In this document: positions 6,798-38,270 of the stretch, one piece after another
Layout: each line of letters opens with the position of its first letter
How positions within the stretch are numbered: position 1 is the first letter of the stretch
Assembly: GCA_037893245.1 (NCBI GenBank)
Contig: JBAIAA010000653.1
Location: forward strand, 186,001-250,000
From: Crossaster papposus
Taxonomy: Eukaryota > Echinodermata > Asteroidea > Velatida > Solasteridae
DNA: 64,000 nt
Reading direction: 5' to 3'
The notes under the pieces: generated by a model
What the model saw: the letters and a program-made list of their open reading frames with translations, nothing else
Told to the model about the DNA's origin: nothing
Database searches by the model: none
Program-made: the position numbers and the translations under genes

Positions 6798-7746
6798 TTA
6801 AATATGTAGTAGTAGGGATATGCCGATTGTAGACCAAATCTTAAATATGTAGTAGTAGGGATATGCCGATTGTAGACCAAATCTTAAATATGTAGTAGTA
6901 GGGATATGCCGATTGTAGACCAAATCTTAAATATGTAGTAGTAGGGATATGCCGATTGTAGACCAAATCTTAAATATGTAGTAGTAGGGATATGCCGATA
7001 GTAGACCAAATCTTAAATATGTAGTAGTAGGGATATGCCGATTGTAGACCAAATCTTAAATATGTAGTAGTAGGGATATGCCGATTGTAGACCAAATCTT
7101 AAATATGTAGTAGTAGGGATATGCCGATTGTAGACCAAATCTTAAATATGTAGTAGTAGGGATATGCCGATTGTAGACCAAATCTTAAATATGTAGTAGT
7201 AGGGATATGCCGATTGTAGACCAAATCTTAAATATGTAGTAGTAGGTATATGCCGATTGTAGACCAAATCTTAAATATGTAGTAGTAGGGATATGCCGAT
7301 TGTAGACCAAATCTTAAATATGTAGTAGTAGGGATATGCCGATTGTAGACCAAATCTTAAATATGTAGTAGTAGGGATATGCCGATTGTAGACCAAATCT
7401 GAAATATGTAGTAGTAGGGATATGCCGATTGTAGACCAAATCTTAAATATGTAGTAGTAGGGATATGCCGATTGTAGACCAAATCTGAAATATGTAGTAG
7501 TAGGGATATGCCGATTGTAGACCAAATCTTAAATATGTTGTAGTAGTAGGGATTTGCCGATTGTAGACCAAATCTTAAATATGTAGTAGTAGGGATATGC
7601 CGATTGTAGACCAAATCTTAAATATGTAGTAGTAGGGATATGCCGATTGTAGACCAAATCTTAAATATGTAGTAGTAGGGATATGCCGATTGTAGACCAA
7701 ATCTTAAATATGTAGTAGTAGGGATATGCCGATTGTAGACCAAATC

Positions 7747-29294: not shown

Positions 29295-29298
29295 TTAA
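29295..29298. other. TTAA target duplication, left of outer element
   Basis: The TTAA of a 43-bp unit (CCAAATC then TTAA) sits directly before the CCCTCGG end of the inserted element. It pairs with TTAA at 38267-38270. Confidence 0.85.
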
Positions 29299-29440
29299 CC
29301 CTCGGAGGCACCACCTAAAAAATTTTTCAGGGAGGCACTACGGGGATCCATCGGTAGGCATTTTATGTTGGAGGGTAAATAACTGTGTTGGGGGGGCCCA
29401 AATCTTGTTCTAATGGTTTGAACAGATGGATATAAGGACC
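29299..29440. other. left remnant of the outer element
   Basis: A 142-bp non-coding segment between the satellite and the Harbinger target duplication. It contains an AAAAAATTTTT palindrome and a G-rich stretch near 29390. No frame or RNA gene is visible. Confidence 0.7.
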
Positions 29441-29443
29441 CTG
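29441..29443. other. CTG target duplication, left of Harbinger
   Basis: CTG precedes GGGCCGATTTCAC and matches CTG at 37756-37758. Removing the transposon leaves GGACC-CTG-GACAC. Confidence 0.8.
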
Positions 29444-29459
29444 GGGCCGATTTCACAAA
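29444..29459 (+). repeat. Harbinger left terminal inverted repeat
   Basis: GGGCCGATTTCACAAA, perfectly complementary to the right end. This is the presumed cleavage end for the nuclease. Confidence 0.9.
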
Positions 29460-29560
29460 ACTCTTCTTAACTTAGGATCGATCTTAGGATTTAGGAAGAG
29501 TCCTAGCTGTAAGATCGATCTTACATAAGATGCGTCCTAAAATCGATTTCACAAAACGCG
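29460..29560. promoter_or_regulatory. left subterminal repeat cluster
   Basis: Contains TTAGGA at 29472, 29484 and 29491, TCCTA at 29501 and TCCTAA at 29535, a perfect 18-bp palindrome TGTAAGATCGATCTTACA at 29508-29525, and a second copy of CGATTTCACAAAA at 29544-29556, 96 bp from the terminal copy. Repeated motifs at both ends are plausible binding sites for the Myb-like protein or the nuclease. Function is inferred. Confidence 0.6.
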
Positions 29561-30111
29561 TCTTAAGCAGGATGTATCGGAAATATAATAAAACCGTAAG
29601 CTATTTCTTGAACGAGGCTGAATGTGCGAGTTTGACGGCTATTTTATATTTATTGTAATGCGCTAACGAAACGGCCGTCGGGCGATCTGTGTTCACAGCA
29701 AATTAAAGATGGCTGATTGGCGAGTTAACGCTGCACAACTTTTTGGCTCCAAACATTAGGGAAATATCGTCTGCAAGGGCAAGCCTAAAAAGTAAGTATT
29801 ATGTACTGGTAAGTATTTTATGTATCGAGGAAAATTGAGCAATTGAATATCATTAATGTCATGAATGTTGTTTAAGTGGTTAGATTCCGAAAGTACTATA
29901 AATCAATCGTTCGTTGTAAAAAACAACAAACAATTCAATTGTTGCCAATGCCAATTCATCGCACTCACATCACCGCACAATTCACTATAGCCTAGCGCAG
30001 TAGGCAAGGCAAGGATTATACAACTCCATGGTTAGCCTAGTAATAATAGTAATAAACAGTGAGTTTGTAATACTTTTTCAAGAATAGCATTTTTAGTCAA
30101 GCGGGGGAAGA
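29561..30111 (+). other. 5' region of the Myb-like gene, possible UTR intron
   Basis: No coding frame is seen. A strong donor-like GTAAGT starts at 29792, and a TTTTTAG acceptor-like site ends at 30096, 15 bases before the ATG at 30112. These could define a 5'-UTR intron of about 305 bp. This is inferred from splice-site appearance only. Confidence 0.35.
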
Positions 30112-31794
30112 ATGAAAAGAAATCGTGAGCGGTCCAGCAATTGGTCCTTTGAGGAGTTATCAATCCTCACAGAATTTGTGAGGATTAATAAAGATAAGAT
30201 CGTTGGAACAAGCAGTAAGGCTTGTGCCAATGTGGAGAAGACAAAAATCCATTACTGGAAAATGGCAAGCAGGGTTCTCGTGGAGAATGGTGGTTCGGCA
30301 AGACCCTGGAAAAGAATCCGGAAAAAATGGCAGACTGTCACCAGCGAGGCAAGAGCGTACCATAGGGACTGCAATAAAACAGGTGAGCTTGTTTGTTTGT
30401 ACAAAATTTGACCCAGCAACCCAAAAGGGAGATGTCAAAGGTAATGTAGGCCTAACGAATAGGCCTAACGTTAGGCTATTAAACTCCCTAGCATACTACT
30501 AGATTACTACTTACTACTACCCTAATTTGAAAAGTGTTTGTTATATTATTATTATTCATTCATTTAATCATTCATCATACATTTATTTCCATATTGCTGG
30601 TACAAGTATACAAAATTAATGAGAAACGTAACAAGAAATAAAAAACAAATGAATACATTTTTAATGAAGCATACAACTACAAGTTTAAAAAGTCAATATA
30701 AATTGTATTACTATTCCAATAATATTAGGTTTATCAATAATAATAATAAGCAGCAATATAATTATAGCATTATATTTTCAGGTGGGGGGAAGAGACCCAA
30801 AGCCAACAAAGTTTTTGATAAGGTGCTGGAGGCTCTTTCCCCTGTTGCAAAAGATGGGATTGTCCCTCAACTAGACGGGGAGTCGGATCCCACAGGGCCA
30901 TCAACTTCGAGGACAAATGAGGAAATCTTGGACCTCCTAGAAAATGGTACATGACCTTTAGAAACTTCTCTTTAACATTAGCATGTGCCATAGGCCTACT
31001 CAAAAGCATTAATCTACCAATAGGGGGCATAATCAAAGAGAAGCTCCATTACGCCCCAACTAGGACTGCAGCCCAAATATGTTTGCAGTCGGCACGACGT
31101 TACGAAGGGGCAAGCCGTCAATAGCAACATGTTAAACCTCAAATTGTTGTGCATAAACAATGGGAATATAAACAAGGTTCCTGGATGTCTGACCGCGAGA
31201 ATAGTAGTCTAATACTTATTAAATATTCACGTGCAGTAACTGTGCTTGCCCTCTACCTGCTAGTTGGGATTTCCCAACTAGTCCAAGTTGGGGCATAACA
31301 GCTTTATGGTTACGAACGGCAAATCCAGAACGACAAGGATTCAAGTTTGCTTGAAGTTAATTATTCACATTTAAATAATTTACATGCACCATAATAATTA
31401 TTTATTACTGTTTGACTTTCAAGCAATACTTCAAGAGGACGCATCAAGAGTTCCTTCGCCTTGTCTTGAATCTGAGGAAGAAGAGGAAGAAGAGGAAGAA
31501 GAGGAAGAAGAGGAAGAAGAGGAAGAAGAGGAAGAAGAGGAAGAAGAGGAAGAGGAAACCACCTGCCCTCAAGACACCATCTCTGCCCACAAGCCCAGTA
31601 AACAAAATACATGTACCTTGATGGATCTGGAAAGGGAAAGGCTGGATTTAGACAAACAGAAATTGAAAATGGATAAGGAACATTTTGAAGTATTCAAGCA
31701 GATTTCTGGGTCTTTGCAAGAAATCAATGAAAACTTCAAAGTGTTTCTTAATGCATGTGTCGTACATGTCAATTGCCCAGAAAGCGAATCTTAA
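30112..31794 (+). CDS. Harbinger Myb/SANT-like DNA-binding protein
   Basis: Three-exon model: 30112-30382, 30782-30946 and 31424-31794, with introns GTGAGC...TTTTCAG and GTACAT...TTTCAAG. Each intron interrupts a codon after its first base and the joined frame is 807 nt (268 aa plus stop). Residues 10-88 are a trihelix Myb/SANT-like domain with spaced tryptophans (WSFEEL, HYWKMAS, RPWKRIRKKWQ), as in NAIF1 and Harbinger Myb-like proteins. The residues that follow, CNKTGGGKRP, are assembled across intron 1. A run of 28 Glu (about residues 163-190) precedes a charged helix (LERERLDLDKQKLKMDKEHF, about residues 214-233) that may form a coiled coil. In characterised Harbingers this protein binds the transposon ends and helps carry the nuclease into the nucleus. 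The single-exon reading past 30382 ends quickly and is intronic. Confidence 0.85.
31474..31557 (+). repeat. poly-Glu (GAA/GAG) repeat in the Myb-like gene
   Basis: 84 bp of mainly GAGGAAGAA repeats coding 28 consecutive glutamates inside exon 3. It is in frame and probably length-variable by slippage. The antisense reading is a meaningless Leu/Pro repeat. Confidence 0.9.
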
Positions 31795-32512
31795 GGGAAT
31801 GTACATTTGATTTTGCTGTAATTTTTAGAAATTGATAGATTTAGGGGGTAAGTATGTAGCAAATTTTGTTACATTGACTTGTTCAATGTTTTTGGGTTTT
31901 GGGAGGGGGAGGCAATATTCAGATAAAAAATTCAGAAATTTTACCAAGCTGAAATAAGGTTTGTGCCTGTATAAATCACATTTATTTATATCTGTTCCAA
32001 TTTATAAAATGTAAAAATGTATACAATAACTAGAATAAACTATTGGACCCTCTTAACTTATTTGATTTGTACATTTTTCTTGCCAGTAAGCAATTTGCAG
32101 CAGTTTTTAATCATATTTGATTTGTACAGTAAAATATATTTGTTCATGTACAATTTTTTAACAGAAAAACAATGAAAACAAACAAAATTACACGAGATGA
32201 CGACACAGTAGAAAGCAAATTCACAGAGAGGTTAAACAACCAGCTAAAAAGAATGTACCAAAATGTATCGATTAAACAGAAAACTTGCGACAGTCGACTT
32301 TTGATATTAATTCAATAAAAATAATTCATTTGTGTCAAGGCAATTCGTTTAGGTTTTTGAATATAAATCATCCATTAAAATAGCCTATTTATTATACAAA
32401 AAAAAACATCTGGATTTTAGGAAAATATATATAAATATTATTTTAAATTAAAAATAGAGTTTATTTTATTAACATGTTATCAAACTACCACAAAATAATT
32501 TCTTCCAGGCCC
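31795..32512 (+). other. 3' region of the Myb-like gene
   Basis: AT-rich, without a convincing frame. AATAAA at 32034-32039 (240 nt after the stop) and at 32314-32319 are candidate polyadenylation signals for the + strand gene. Confidence 0.5.
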
Positions 32513-32952
32513 AATAGACCGATTGCGCCCTCTAAGTCGCGTGACCTATAGTGGGTATCAAAATCAACAAACATGGCGTCCTCCATAGCAAAGTGCGGCT
32601 GTTGCAGAGTACATGATGATTGTTGCAATTGTTTCTTCGATCGAGGCTTTTCTTTTTCGAACTCTCTGAAGAATATTCCAGAGTTTGTACCCGAGAACAT
32701 AACGTTCATTGTAGAATTTCCAAGACTTGCTGGAACTATCCTTACTGGCTTTATTCACCCATTCGGTAAGGGCTCAAACTCTGGATAATTTGTTTTTGAG
32801 CTTTTGAGAAAGAAAAGCCTTGATCGAAGAAACAAATGCAACAATCATCATGTACTCTGCAACAGTGGCACTTTGCTATGGAGGACGCCATGTTTGTTGA
32901 TGTTTGATACCCACTAAAGGTAACGTGACTTAGAGGGCGCAATCGGTCTATT
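32513..32952. mobile_element. foldback/MITE-like inverted repeat (440 bp)
   Basis: Two long arms, about 32513-32690 and 32775-32952, are inverted copies by eye roughly 90% identical in their outer 140 bp, starting AATAGACCGATTGCGCCC and ending with the complement. A centre of about 80 bp is unique. TA directly outside GACCG on both sides could be a TA target duplication (Tc1/mariner type), but this is ambiguous because AATA/TATT also matches the inverted repeat. Short frames in the arms mirror each other (both contain MASSIAKC and HDDCC) and follow from the inversion. They are not evidence of a gene. Confidence 0.75.
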
Positions 32953-33588
32953 TGCTGTAGATGAAACTTGGGTGGCAAAACATTCTGAGCTTACTTGAGC
33001 ACATGTCATGAGTTAGCAAGGAATGTTTGCTTCTGTACATGCATGCTAAGTATTTCTTGGCGAAAACCCCTGTAAGTGGACAATGGTAATTGTAAGCAGC
33101 GCCATGAATTTAGGCTGTGTATGTCAGAATTCTTAAGTTTTTATTAGGGCATAACAAGTACATGTAGTGCTGTGGAACCACCCCCACACACAGCCTGGAA
33201 AACTGCACTCTGGATCTGCAATGTGTAATGTTATCAATTTTGTTATACATGTACATGTATTCACTTTTGACTATCAAGAATTTCACATTAAAAAAATATA
33301 AAACTTTACTTGAAAATTTCAGCTCATTTTATTGCTTTTATTTCAAGTCGTACATGTTAAAAGTGAATAGGAGATAGCTGTTAGTTTATAAATGCATAAA
33401 CTAAGCGATTGTTTTACGTTTTGACACCCTCAAACTCAATCTTTCTCAACATGGCTAAATGACAAGACAACATGGTACATACAAAAACAAATATGTAAAA
33501 GTGGAGGGAAATTCGGTACCCGAGGGTAAGTTCTATAGATGAATAGGTCTCCACTAGGAATTTCACGAATTAGATTTTTTGATTTTAC
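32953..33588. other. non-coding inter-gene region of Harbinger
   Basis: No supported gene. Contains a short hairpin, TTAGTTTAT/ATAAACTAA, at 33381-33404 and an imperfect inverted pair TATTCACTTTT(G/A)AC near 33258 and 33357 that could mark a further small decayed element. Confidence 0.4.
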
Positions 33589-34213
33589 TTAAAGGTAGTA
33601 TACACCATTGGAAATTTGTTGAATTATCAGGAATGGGTAGATTTGGGGGGTTGTATTTTATAGTAAATATCGTTTAACCAGTTCGCGCCGGGATTATTTT
33701 AACATCACCGAGCCAAGGGGCAGGATTATTTTTAACGAAACTCGATCCGAAGCGTGTTCAGGCCGAAAGTGCCGGGAAGCACACCCACTCATTTCCGGCC
33801 TTGCTCGCTGCTGACAGACATTTCCGAACTTGAACTTGGCGTGTTTATGCGTCATCCGTTTTGATTTTGGGGAAAACTTTGCGTTTATATACGTCATCCG
33901 GCGCGAACTGGTTAACTGACCTGTCCGAATTTTTACATTCATGGATGCCGAGAAAAGCATGAAAAACAGCGTTTGTTTTCTACCGGCGTCGAGCAGTTAT
34001 TCTTATGTTATCTTTGTTTTTTCGCGCTCGCCGGACGGCGAGAATGAATTTTGGTTTATACAATTCAATTTTTTGGAACAATTACAGGATATCTAAGGCC
34101 CTCATTTTGCTGGATGCCTACAATCATTATTTACTTTTAAATAAGTAAGATATTTCTTAATAATTCGGTAGTAAATTTTTTCGATATCTGCAAATGGTGT
34201 ATCCTACCTTTAA
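33589..34213. mobile_element. 617-bp MITE with TTAA duplications
   Basis: TTAA at 33589-33592 is followed by AGGTAGTATACACCATT. The complementary AATGGTGTATCCTACCT ends at 34209 and is followed by TTAA at 34210-34213. The inverted repeats match at 16 of 17 bases. There is no transposase frame. It contains a second element, listed separately. TTAA suits a piggyBac-type mobiliser, but the AGG start is not the usual CCY, so the family is uncertain. Confidence 0.72.
33674..33915. mobile_element. 234-bp TTAA-flanked MITE nested in the 617-bp MITE
   Basis: TTAA at 33674-33677 precedes CCAGTTCGCGCCGG, and its exact complement CCGGCGCGAACTGG ends at 33911, followed by TTAA at 33912-33915. A perfect 14-bp inverted repeat starting with CC plus TTAA duplications fits a piggyBac-like MITE. 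It is GC-richer than its surroundings and holds two related motifs, GTGTTTATGCGTCATCCG and GCGTTTATATACGTCATCCG, in tandem. The frame across it on the - strand has no recognisable domain. Confidence 0.8.
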
Positions 34214-34416
34214 ATTACTCAAGAACTAGGTTTAGGATGTGGATAAGGGTATAACATTAGGTATATTGGGTCGAAATTTCAACCCAGGAAATTATTTGTG
34301 CTCAACTTTTTAACCATTTTGTACATGAGAACAAAGAGATGTCTCCACAAGGATACAAATGTGTGAAATTTGCATTGTGTATGTTGAGAAAGACAATCAC
34401 TCATTTTATGCACTTG
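34214..34416. other. 3' flank of the nuclease gene
   Basis: A 203-bp non-coding segment downstream of the - strand nuclease stop. No canonical AATAAA was found on the - strand here, so the transcript end is unknown. Confidence 0.4.
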
Positions 34417-37400
34417 TTAAAAGTGTCTATTAATTAGCATCTGCCTCTGTAGCCTACCATCTTGAATGGGCCCTTCATATGGAACATCATCGTTGTCATC
34501 ATCAACTTCCACTTCATCTTCAAAGTGTAGCTCTGGCTCCCTGAATTCCTTGGAAAGATTGAAGAGAACACAGCAGGATCTTATGATATGACAGGCTTTC
34601 TGTGGAGCTACTCTTAAACCCAAGGACAGGCATGGAAATCGGCGCTTGAGTTGGCCAAATGTCTGCTCTATTTTGGCTCTTGTCGTCCTGTGTGACCTGT
34701 AAAAATAGAACGACAATCCAGTTGATGAATGCTAGTTAGTGTCGGGTTAAGGCATTGATGAATGAAACAGGCCAACACTGTGTTGGATTGCAAGAATAAT
34801 CCCAGGATGGGACAGTGTGATTTTGTTTCTTTTTTTACATGTGTGCATGAATTATGAATTCCAGTGCACAGTTTAGGAATTTGTGACTTCACACTGACCC
34901 TTTCCAGGCTTCATATTTATTATTAATTTACCTGTTGTAGCGTCTTTCTGCATTTGTCGTAGGCTCCATTACTGGTGTCATTAGCCAAGGCCTCTGAGCA
35001 TACCCAGTGTCTGCAATCAAAGTTCCTTGCAGTCTGCAATTTGTATAAAACATAATGATTTGAAGATTTAAATATCTGAACACTACAGACAAAATTGGGC
35101 AAACTCACCTACAATGGTTAATATTTTAACAGGATCAAGAGTGGATCTGCTCAAAATATATGGACCACTTCTTGAAAAATTTCGCAGCCACATTTTCCCC
35201 AACCACCTTACAACATCATACTCACTGTTCAGTGTAATTGAAACCCTAATGTTGAAAATGGGATACATGTATATCTCTTTTTCAACAATTTATGTTTTGT
35301 TTTATTTATTTTTTTCTGCTTTTTTTAACGTATCAGTTGGAAAAAGAAGAACAAAAGTCAGTTCATACTTCATGCAAAAGCAAGTAACTTTGACAATGCC
35401 AATCAAGCTGCTTTGTTTTCACTGTTGACATAGTGAAATGTAGTTTGTTTACGAGTGTGAGAATTTATTTTGCATTCGATTTTGCATGAAGTACACACAT
35501 GAACCCCCAAAAAGGTAGCTCGGGCTTTGTAGCTCGCCGAGTCACCGTTAAGATTTATTTCAATTAGCGGCATTTTTGTTGCTTGGTAGTTCTTCAAAAA
35601 AATAAGAAATGGATATTAATTGCGACTTGGCATGTAACAAGGGAAAAATGCTTCATTTGACTAACCTTCCATCGGTGAACATCTGCCCAATAAGACTTCC
35701 ATGCAGAACAGCACTGTCATGTGTGCTGCCGGGCCATCTGGCAACCACATTTGTTATGCGGAAACCAGCATCACAAACGGCTTGCACATTGATGCTATGG
35801 TAGCTTTTACGGTTGACATAGAGGTGTTCATCGTCACCAAGTGGCGCTCCATACAGCCGGACATGTGTGCAATCAATAGCACCTACCACCCCCGGGAAGC
35901 CTGCAACCCTATGAAACTCTTGTTTCACCCTCATCACATCTTGAAGATTTGCTGGAAATGTAATGACACCATTTGTCAGTCTTGAGATGGATCTTGTCAC
36001 CCGATGGATGATTCGGCAAACTGATGCAGTACTGATGTCATGCAGGTCTCCTTCAACCATGTAAAAGGCACCGGTGCCATAGAATCGGAGTGTTGTCAGC
36101 AGCTGAATCAGTGGCGAAATCGCATTGTTACGCTGAAAAGATTTAAAAATTAAAAGAGATAAATAACAAGTTTTTAGTCTATTACTTGAGCAAACTAAAG
36201 GTGAAAATATTAAGAGTTACTTTCTGTTGGAGAATTAATGCATGTACTGAGTTTTGAATAAAATAATCAATTTTGCAGCTCACAATTGAAACTACACTAG
36301 TCATTCATTGTGAATGGACAAAAACTGGTCTATTGTAGGTGGATCGTCCATACATGTAGAACTGAGAACTAAACTGATACATCAATCAATTAATTATTTG
36401 AATACATTCGCAATGCACCATGGGTATGGATAGAAAAACCCTGCAGTTTGTACAGAAGTCTATGGCAGGTGAGGGGGGGGGGGGGGCACAATTTTTTTTC
36501 TTAATCTTCTCATAACCTAGAAAGGCTCAGACACTGGTTTTTTCACATTTTATTTTTAAAATAATTACGCATGAAAAGTCATTGGGATTCCCTCTTGGGC
36601 TGAATGAAAAAACACGTCATGAACACCACAAAATACCAAATAATAATATAAAAGCTTGTCATGTTCATAGGCCTAGTTAAAAAGTAGAGTTCATTGCATT
36701 AATGCAGGGAGTGACTCAATTTGTTCTCCTATTCCCAACTCATTTATTCAGTACTAGTACTAGTCCTAGGGCTGGGCCTCAATTGCCCTTGGATCTAAAT
36801 CATAATTAATATCAAACTGTGAAATGGTCGTTCGAACATGTATACATTGGTATTTGGTAACGTTAAGCTGCAGTCTTGCAGCCCTACAGGGTTTGGCAAA
36901 TCATGGAGGAATAAAAATTCCTCCATGGGCAAATGTAAACATGGTTCAATTTTTGGTAAAAATAAAAAAAGATCACATAGCTTAACAAATCTCTGCAGAA
37001 TCGTCATCAGCGTGAAAGTGATGGAACCCTGTCATTCGACGCCTTATCGTTCATAGCTCCTGCAACAAAAATGACGACACGTAGCTCAACATGATCTGCC
37101 CCATATTTTCTTTTGCTGAATGCTGGATGATATTTTTCAATAACGGCAAACACCGATTTAATGTTACGTCGCGCTATGAACGGAATGACCGACAGATCAC
37201 ATGCAATACGTACGTAGTCGTTCCTAACTAATGGTGGCGCTAGTCATGTTTTTGTCAGTTGCATGGCGCGGTCGGGCGCCGGTATACATGTATAATTTAA
37301 TAATTATTTCAAAAAGTTCGTAATTTTCTTTACCTGTGTTGCAGGTTGTATCTGTTGACTAACCCTTTCTAACAATTGAGTAATCCCAAGCCGTGTAAAC

Positions 37401-37522
37401 CGATATCTTCGGATAACTTCTTCGTCGGTCAGATTATCCAAGGGGTTTCGTCTGTCCCTGAATAGCCTCTCTCTTCTCAACGCCCGTCTTGCTTCGTGGT
37501 CCGCCAAAAGTATAAGCGCCAT
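34417..37522 (-). CDS. HARBI1-like: HARBI1-like DDE nuclease (Harbinger transposase)
   Basis: Four-exon model on the - strand: 37522-37334, 36132-35666, 35033-34932 and 34696-34417. All introns have GT/AG ends and the joined frame is 1,038 nt (345 aa plus stop), close to the usual HARBI1 length of about 350. The protein is nuclear and would cut the transposon ends and join them to target DNA. Visible motifs: RDRRNPLDNLTDEEVIRRYRF (23-43), a helix-turn-helix region (about 66-112), GAIDCTHV with catalytic D150, YVNRKSYHS (168-176), PGSTHDSAVL (197-206), IADTGYAQRPW with D227, and KIEQTFGQLKRRF with E263, giving D-76-D-35-E. The tail is acidic (EDEVEVDDDNDD). ATG at 37522 is preferred (A at -3, G at +4). 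An in-frame ATG at 37594 would add 24 residues. No stop or frameshift is seen, so it may be functional. Confidence 0.9.
35034..35665 (-). other. intron 2 of the nuclease gene
   Basis: A 632-bp intron, GTTAGT...TTGCAG on the - strand. It contains a 14-bp inverted pair, TACTTCATGCAAAA near 35367 and its complement near 35483, about 100 bp apart, perhaps a small decayed element. The + strand frame at its start has no known domain. Confidence 0.7.
36133..37333 (-). other. intron 1 of the nuclease gene
   Basis: A 1,201-bp intron, GTAAAG...TTTCAG on the - strand. It holds a run of 14 G at 36473-36486 and a perfect 11-bp-stem hairpin, CATGGAGGAAT with loop AAAA, at 36902-36927. No gene is supported on either strand. 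Confidence 0.7.
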
Positions 37523-37629
37523 TATTTTGAGAGCGCCGGACGACAAATGATTGTGAGCGTAAAATTCAATAGCTAAGATGACCCATACACTCATCTTAAG
37601 TTAAGATGGGTTTGACACCGTTGTCATGG

Positions 37630-37739
37630 AAGTTAGGACACGTTTAACCCTTCTTAATTTTTGTGAAATCGTTCCTAGGACGCATCCTAAGTTAGGACGA
37701 GTTACCCTTCCTAACTCGAGATAAGACTCGTCTTAACGC
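37630..37739. promoter_or_regulatory. right subterminal repeat cluster
   Basis: Mirrors the left end. TTAGGA lies at 37633 and 37692, TCCTAA at 37685 and 37710, TCCTAGGA at 37673, and an inner TTTTGTGAAATCG at 37659-37671, 80 bp from the terminal copy. It also lies just upstream of the nuclease start and may hold its promoter. No TATA box is evident. Confidence 0.6.
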
Positions 37740-37755
37740 TTTGTGAAATCGGCCC
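37740..37755 (-). repeat. Harbinger right terminal inverted repeat
   Basis: TTTGTGAAATCGGCCC, the exact reverse complement of the left end. Confidence 0.9.
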
Positions 37756-37758
37756 CTG
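37756..37758. other. CTG target duplication, right of Harbinger
   Basis: CTG follows GAAATCGGCCC and is the partner of 29441-29443. Three bp is the usual Harbinger duplication length, but the common motif is TWA rather than CTG. Confidence 0.8.
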
Positions 37759-38266
37759 GACACACATATCAAAGATTTAAACATTCTGGCTATTTTATGT
37801 ATTTTTTTAAGGACATCCATTGCAAGCATGTAAACATTGAAATCAGTATTGCGCAATACATACATGAAACAGCAAAAGGATACACACTGTACAAATAAAA
37901 ACGACCAACAGCTCTAACTACCCCCCAGGGGATGTCTGGGTCACAGCTGTGTTTGTTATCTACCCCAAGGCCGCTCAAAGAGATGTCAGAGACTTTTTTT
38001 GACGGCGGCTATACACAAAGGGATCAGATTTCGATTTGTTTGCACAACTCTATGGCTTTTGGCCAAAACCATTATTTTGAAGGGATGGTTTTTTTTTTTT
38101 CACCCCCTGAATGACCTCCTGTGTTAGAATTTTTTTCCCAGTCCATTCAGCAGGGTCTAGGGATAGATGAAAAAAAAGGACAGCTCCATTGACTGAAAAA
38201 AAATAAAAATATAAACAAACACATAGTTTTTGTCCACCCTTTGGAGGCTGGCCGTTTGACTGAGGG
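37759..38266. other. right remnant of the outer element
   Basis: A 508-bp non-coding segment between the Harbinger and the satellite, with an 11-base T run ending near 38100 and A-rich tracts near 38170-38215. Short frames cross it but show no domain, and one runs into the satellite. Confidence 0.6.
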
Positions 38267-38270
38267 TTAA
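38267..38270. other. TTAA target duplication, right of outer element
   Basis: TTAA directly follows GAGGG and continues as ATATGTAGTAG. Joining the left and right flanks through one TTAA gives an intact, in-phase 43-bp unit. Confidence 0.85.

Follow-up and report, generated by a model that had tools for sequence, protein, structure and literature searches.

A two-gene PIF/Harbinger transposon of the asteroid Crossaster papposus, apparently autonomous and very probably mobile in the recent past

Can an animal PIF/Harbinger transposon be found that carries both of its genes intact and has moved recently under its own power? The question is raised by an element in a 64,000-nucleotide stretch of Crossaster papposus DNA (assembly GCA_037893245.1, contig JBAIAA010000653.1, positions 186,001 to 250,000 of the forward strand; hereafter the window), which lies on contig C653 within a genome of 1.02 Gb. 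Based on the comparison of its sequence with the rest of the genome, we consider it very probable that this is a PIF/Harbinger DNA transposon that is apparently autonomous and was mobile in the recent past. A first-pass annotation of the window had proposed an apparently autonomous element, perhaps active or recently so, and this proposal is supported by near-identical intact copies as well as by deletion derivatives with the same ends. In window positions, the parts of the element are:

29444-37755: PIF/Harbinger element, one DNA transposon of 8312 bp
29441-29443: left target-site duplication (TSD), CTG, directly outside the left end
37756-37758: right TSD, CTG, directly outside the right end
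29444-29459, plus strand: left terminal inverted repeat (TIR), 16 exact bases, GGGCCGATTTCACAAA
37740-37755, minus strand: right TIR, 16 exact bases, GGGCCGATTTCACAAA
29544-29566, plus strand: left subterminal repeat of the TIR core, 91% identical to 29448-29470
37660-37675, minus strand: right subterminal repeat of the TIR core, two mismatches against the TIR
30112-30382, plus strand: Myb-like gene, exon 1, with the Myb/SANT domain
30782-30946, plus strand: Myb-like gene, exon 2
31424-31794, plus strand: Myb-like gene, exon 3 with the stop codon
31474-31553, plus strand: minisatellite of 9-bp units, GAGGAAGAA, coding for poly-glutamate, with in-frame length variation among copies
32499-32966: foldback structure (inverted repeats I1 and I2), free of large gaps in all ten copies
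37334-37522, minus strand: transposase gene, exon 1 with the ATG
35666-36132, minus strand: transposase gene, exon 2 with putative catalytic D150; DDE_Tnp_4 covers residues 149-299
34932-35033, minus strand: transposase gene, exon 3 with putative catalytic D227
34417-34696, minus strand: transposase gene, exon 4 with putative catalytic E263 and the stop codon

The structural features named in the first-pass annotation were all recovered: perfect 16-bp ends, a target duplication (the CTG immediately outside both of them), a nuclease of 345 amino acids (aa) with the spacing D-76-D-35-E, a spliced frame for a Myb-like partner of 268 aa, and five introns that are frame-consistent with GT and AG borders. 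Inverted similarity of the ends extends, with gaps, about 100 bp beyond the exact bases, and an imperfect second copy of the TIR core is found some 80-100 bp inward from each end. When up to three mismatches are allowed, the TIR occurs three times in the window; the mean for shuffled sequence is 0.23, and none of 100 shuffles reached three. The motifs TTAGGA/TCCTAA are candidate Myb sites: eight of the 12 in the element lie within 130 bp of one or the other terminus, and the 11 examined derivatives longer than 130 bp possess two to five of them per end.

The two genes converge, tail to tail. Over the whole profile, the transposase matches the Pfam family DDE_Tnp_4 (3.3e-33; 115 bits, cut-off 24.8), which we take to be the Harbinger-type transposase domain; D150, D227 and E263, whose spacing was measured, are presumably the catalytic residues, named according to the motif as we know it. 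Residues 7-82 of the Myb-like protein match Myb_DNA-bind_5 (4.3e-9; 36.6 bits, cut-off 21.7). For the transposase, 21 combinations of GT and AG sites yield more than 300 aa, and the 345-aa product is the longest. The splicing of the Myb-like gene is not fixed by the reading frame: 21 combinations exceed 230 aa, two of the eight printed ones give 268 aa, and the model adopted here is the 268-aa variant with the donor GTGAGC, which was judged the best-looking. The exon borders of the transposase gene, with their GT and AG, recur in the diverged relatives L029, L030 and L031 from the same genome; no exons 3-4 could be located in L031. The ratio of nonsynonymous to synonymous substitution rates (dN/dS) for exon 2 is 0.086 against L029, 0.11 against L031 and 0.053 between L029 and L030, values that are rough because the synonymous rate is saturated throughout; for the same reason the ratio against L030 is undefined. 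The exon 4 ratio is disregarded, as its calculation was out of phase.

How many such elements does the genome contain? At 100% identity, the left end is found at ten places including the window, the right end at 12, transposase exon 2 at 12 and Myb exon 1 at 11. The comparison covered ten full-length copies, each at a locus of its own (C653, i.e. the window, C877, C597, C489, C263, C258, C144, C137, C118 and C48), and all ten keep both reading frames as well as GT and AG at all five introns. Their pairwise divergence amounts to 0.01-0.51% (mean 0.33%, 45 pairs); no two are identical, and a single substitution in about 8.1 kb separates C137 from C263, which occupy different loci. A BLAST search between the 500-bp flanks of the ten copies revealed nothing longer than 21 bp. 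The TSDs are exact in nine copies and all of these are CTG or CAG. The poly-glutamate run differs in length among the copies, with the frame kept. Coding sequence has fewer variable sites (8/1836) than the remainder of the element (69/5741; Fisher p = 0.003, only a guide since the copies are related and thus not independent). This difference suggests that function was under selection while the family spread. A single tree accommodates nearly all 34 informative sites.

Two further candidates were not accepted as full-length copies. The sequence on C1760 represents the window locus once more, as it matches without a difference over 8646 bp, flank included; in C1111 the nuclease exon is present, but the match ends at element position 7609 and a right end is missing. 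The count of near-identical copies proposed in the first-pass annotation thus gives ten intact elements of low divergence. The family does not consist solely of old and divergent copies, although older or broken ones are nonetheless present.

The exact TIR occurs 200 times in the genome and its reversed control not once; 146 of these occurrences come after CAG or CTG. Only 20 of the 200 are ends of the ten full-length copies, in line with the earlier statement that intact two-gene copies are less common than deleted ones. The deletion derivatives with the same ends, whose count had likewise been proposed, are present and include two copies of 929 bp at two loci, which have the same internal deletion and are one substitution apart; recent movement thus extended to non-autonomous copies. 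A further five short derivatives (C417, C140, C415, C510 and C635) show mutual distances of about 5-7% and are about 10-12% distant from the autonomous ends; judged by these distances, this is an older layer. Derivatives of both a young and an old generation consequently exist. The short derivatives L036-L045 (n = 10) were rejected as separate insertions, for they share their flank and represent one insertion multiplied inside another repeat. Together with L028 (C730), they are one short derivative carried along in the multiplied repeat, which raises apparent copy counts. Miniature elements of 130 bp with exact Harbinger ends were observed as well (L051, L052).

Could the likeness among the copies be deceptive? 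If the insertions were old and the family dead, gene conversion or large duplications might have kept the copies alike, and multiplied segments do exist, as the ten derivatives inside another repeat and the exact repetition of the window locus on C1760 illustrate. Yet the flanks of the ten full-length copies are unrelated, conversion would scramble the informative sites instead of leaving an almost conflict-free tree, and there are nested insertions that are private to one copy and not shared. We regard this explanation as very improbable. Even less credence, close to none, is due to the idea that a Harbinger element was domesticated into a pair of host genes in the manner of HARBI1/NAIF1: coding sequence does vary less than non-coding sequence, and exon 2 has a dN/dS of about 0.05-0.11 against and among the relatives (with saturated synonymous rates), but one would expect domestication to leave a single copy without its ends, whereas here ten copies stand in unrelated flanks with intact ends and, in nine, exact duplications.

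What is more difficult to judge is whether a recently mobile family has since fallen silent or become inactive, so that intact genes are left without present transposition. To this we give a substantial chance, somewhat short of even. It is compatible with the preferred reading, which claims recent mobility and apparent autonomy rather than present activity. The absence of identical pairs among the ten copies and the position of the window copy in satellite DNA, with nested insertions, agree with such silencing; the single substitutions between C137 and C263 and between the 929-bp derivatives argue that little time has passed since the last moves.

Some observations weigh against a recently mobile and autonomous family. 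The satellite surroundings may silence the window copy. In C489, one of the ten copies, the duplications are unequal (CAG/CAA). The ten copies vary at a few residues; therefore, an inactivating missense change could go unseen. A relative with a solved structure was not found by sequence search. Furthermore, there are older or broken relatives on C854, on C123 and at a second place on C258 near 1.43 Mb, which are left out of all statements on the ten copies: in C854 and C123 the nuclease exon 2 is in pieces, the second C258 place matches exon 2 with 97% and Myb exon 1 with 82% identity, and C123 and this C258 place have both ends, with spans of about 14 and 19 kb, respectively.

The element shows the characters of the PIF/Harbinger superfamily: TIRs of 16 exact bases, a 3-bp TSD (exact in nine of the ten full-length copies), a DDE transposase (DDE_Tnp_4, D-76-D-35-E), a second gene of Myb/SANT type (Myb_DNA-bind_5) and, apparently, an extended palindromic target (symmetrised counts, 17 of 29 sites). 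ISL2EU elements have a 2-bp duplication and a YqaJ nuclease as partner; the 3-bp duplication and the Myb partner place the element outside that group. With its duplication it does not belong to Spy either, which lacks a TSD according to a title in the reference list of PMC9179366. The TIRs are shorter than the usual 25-50 bp given in that paper.

Among known systems, zebrafish Harbinger3_DR resembles the window element in its DDE transposase and Myb-like genes (PMC2836001, PMC9710019). It is reported to favour the palindromic target AAACACCWGGTCTTT (PMC3016246), whose core CCWGG (W, A or T) is common to both, while the outer positions differ. Harbinger3_DR was reconstructed and is active in human cells; the natural copies of the present family, likened to it by description, are intact without reconstruction. 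Ping/Pong/mPing of rice likewise combine two proteins, a 3-bp duplication and deletion derivatives, which are mobilised there (PMC2836001); they insert preferentially at TAA/TTA (PMC4561436) and their host is a plant, whereas the present family inserts at CWG in an animal. HARBI1 and NAIF1 are of the same two protein types (PMC9710019), but they are domesticated host genes, unlike a multi-copy element with intact ends. Also comparable are Harbinger-Snek of sea kraits and its sea-urchin relatives, two-gene animal Harbingers with many intact copies in one species (PMC8437027): 269 intact copies are given for Laticauda colubrina, compared with ten full-length copies here, again likened by description. 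Because intact multi-copy animal Harbingers have thus been reported (PMC8437027), the present case is a good rather than a surprising one. Its ten natural, intact, near-identical copies and young derivatives are material for asking if an animal Harbinger works unreconstructed, and the genealogy of the copies, their nested insertions and the set of targets show how the family spread and was parasitised by other transposons.

Movement of Harbinger3_DR and Ping/Pong needs both proteins, according to PMC2836001, PMC4561436 and PMC9710019. By analogy with these systems, the Myb-like protein would bind the end regions and escort the transposase into the nucleus and on to the element's termini, where the DDE nuclease would excise the element through cuts staggered by three nucleotides (nt). 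Such cuts at the 3-bp duplication would let the donor site close precisely; the excised element would then be pasted into a palindromic site around CCWGG, and the same two proteins may move internally deleted derivatives in the same way.

What do the targets themselves look like? The consensus is approximately AAGAGWCCWGGWCTCTT with the core CCWGG, obtained from 17 of 29 sites, those with exact duplications, and from counts that are symmetrised by construction. In complete pattern lists, 26 elements have exact ends and a CWG on both sides; 18 of these pairs are equal, and eight combine a CAG with a CTG. The ratio of equal to CAG/CTG pairs is 12 to 1 in elements longer than 900 bp and 6 to 7 in shorter ones, i.e. 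such flips affect seven of 13 short derivatives versus one of 13 longer elements. Perhaps six of the eight flips are independent: on C268 two have the CWG between them in common, and on C382 two lie 124 kb apart and may reflect one event or a duplicated locus. Short derivatives flanked by CAG/CTG (L022, L023, L048, L050 and the places on C382 and C744) exceed the expectation for random mutation. A first count, from a sample partly chosen by eye, gave seven flips among 11 single-difference pairs against one in nine for random changes (binomial p = 5e-5); after enlargement of the sample by one flip and three other differences, the count is eight of 15. L099 was dropped as a repeat of L062, and the flip counts depend on the sample. 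At L022, a 929-bp derivative directly adjoins an older derivative, with one CWG common to both.

One explanation could be that this animal Harbinger is naturally active and that, on insertion, it can carry over the 3-nt CWG overhang of the donor; if a CWG flap were sometimes ligated at the new site, only the central W would be free to differ, which would pair a CAG with a CTG. We consider this unlikely. The excess of flips in short derivatives stands against the simple donor-flap form, and so does the left flank of C417, which is altered relative to its sister locus C546; as C546 differs in that flank and has a CTG at either side, the flip at C417 may have arisen after insertion. A chimeric origin of the CAG/CTG pair at C417 is unsupported, as the flanks are continuous in several uninserted relatives (73-77% identity). 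We cannot explain the excess of CAG/CTG duplications.

The Harbinger copies have themselves been hosts to other elements, among them two miniature inverted-repeat transposable elements (MITEs) in the window:

33591-34211: MITE1, nested in the Harbinger element, with AAAGGTAG ends; 383 bp without MITE2
33674-33915: MITE2, nested in MITE1, flanked by TTAA, with ends CCAGTTCGCGCCGG

MITE1 is present in seven of the ten copies and absent from C877, C597 and C489, which have three different junctions, each with short losses of flank (L009, L010, L011), and which are placed in different parts of the ten-copy tree; the C877 branch is weakly supported (69). The C877 junction lacks flanking bases that are partly common to all nine others, which also points to loss. 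The simplest reading would be one insertion of MITE1 followed by three separate losses, as by excision, apparently recent, through another transposase. MITE2 is restricted to the window copy among the ten. A relative of it occupies another TTAA in C144 (L015); short TTAA elements with CCAGTTCGCGCCGG ends entered two Harbinger copies separately. C258 (L013) carries a 4.1-kb insert with inverted ends AGTCTTGCAGCCAT and several open frames in intron 1 of the transposase gene. In view of these nested inserts, Harbinger copies were mobile while other elements inserted into them.

The window copy, in turn, is inserted into another element within a satellite array:

29299-38266: host element of 653 bp, interrupted by the Harbinger element; ends CCCT...AGGG, TTAA on either side
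29295-29298: left TTAA target copy of the host element
38267-38270: right TTAA target copy of the host element
1-29294, plus strand: 43-bp satellite array, left part, with scattered 67-bp variant units (Tandem Repeats Finder and k-mer map)
38271-64000, plus strand: 43-bp satellite array, right part (Tandem Repeats Finder and k-mer map)

TTAA also stands on both sides of the host element in L032 and L033, and we take this element to be piggyBac-like and non-autonomous. A 345-nt query in which both Harbinger flanks were joined at a single CTG gave 661 candidates at first look and matches at least 40 Harbinger-free places over its full length at 98-100%, seven of them at 100% among the matches listed. 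Since the query with a single CTG is matched in full, these places correspond to the empty target site, the CTG of which was duplicated upon insertion. With at least 40 copies that are near-identical over these 345 nt (98-100%), the host element also seems to have been recently mobile. Tandem Repeats Finder assigns positions 21-63792 to the 43-bp array, and the k-mer map shows a single gap in it at about 29.3-38.25 kb. The 67-bp variant units form scattered runs of about two to five copies, and TTAAATATGTA is present in their unit sequence too.

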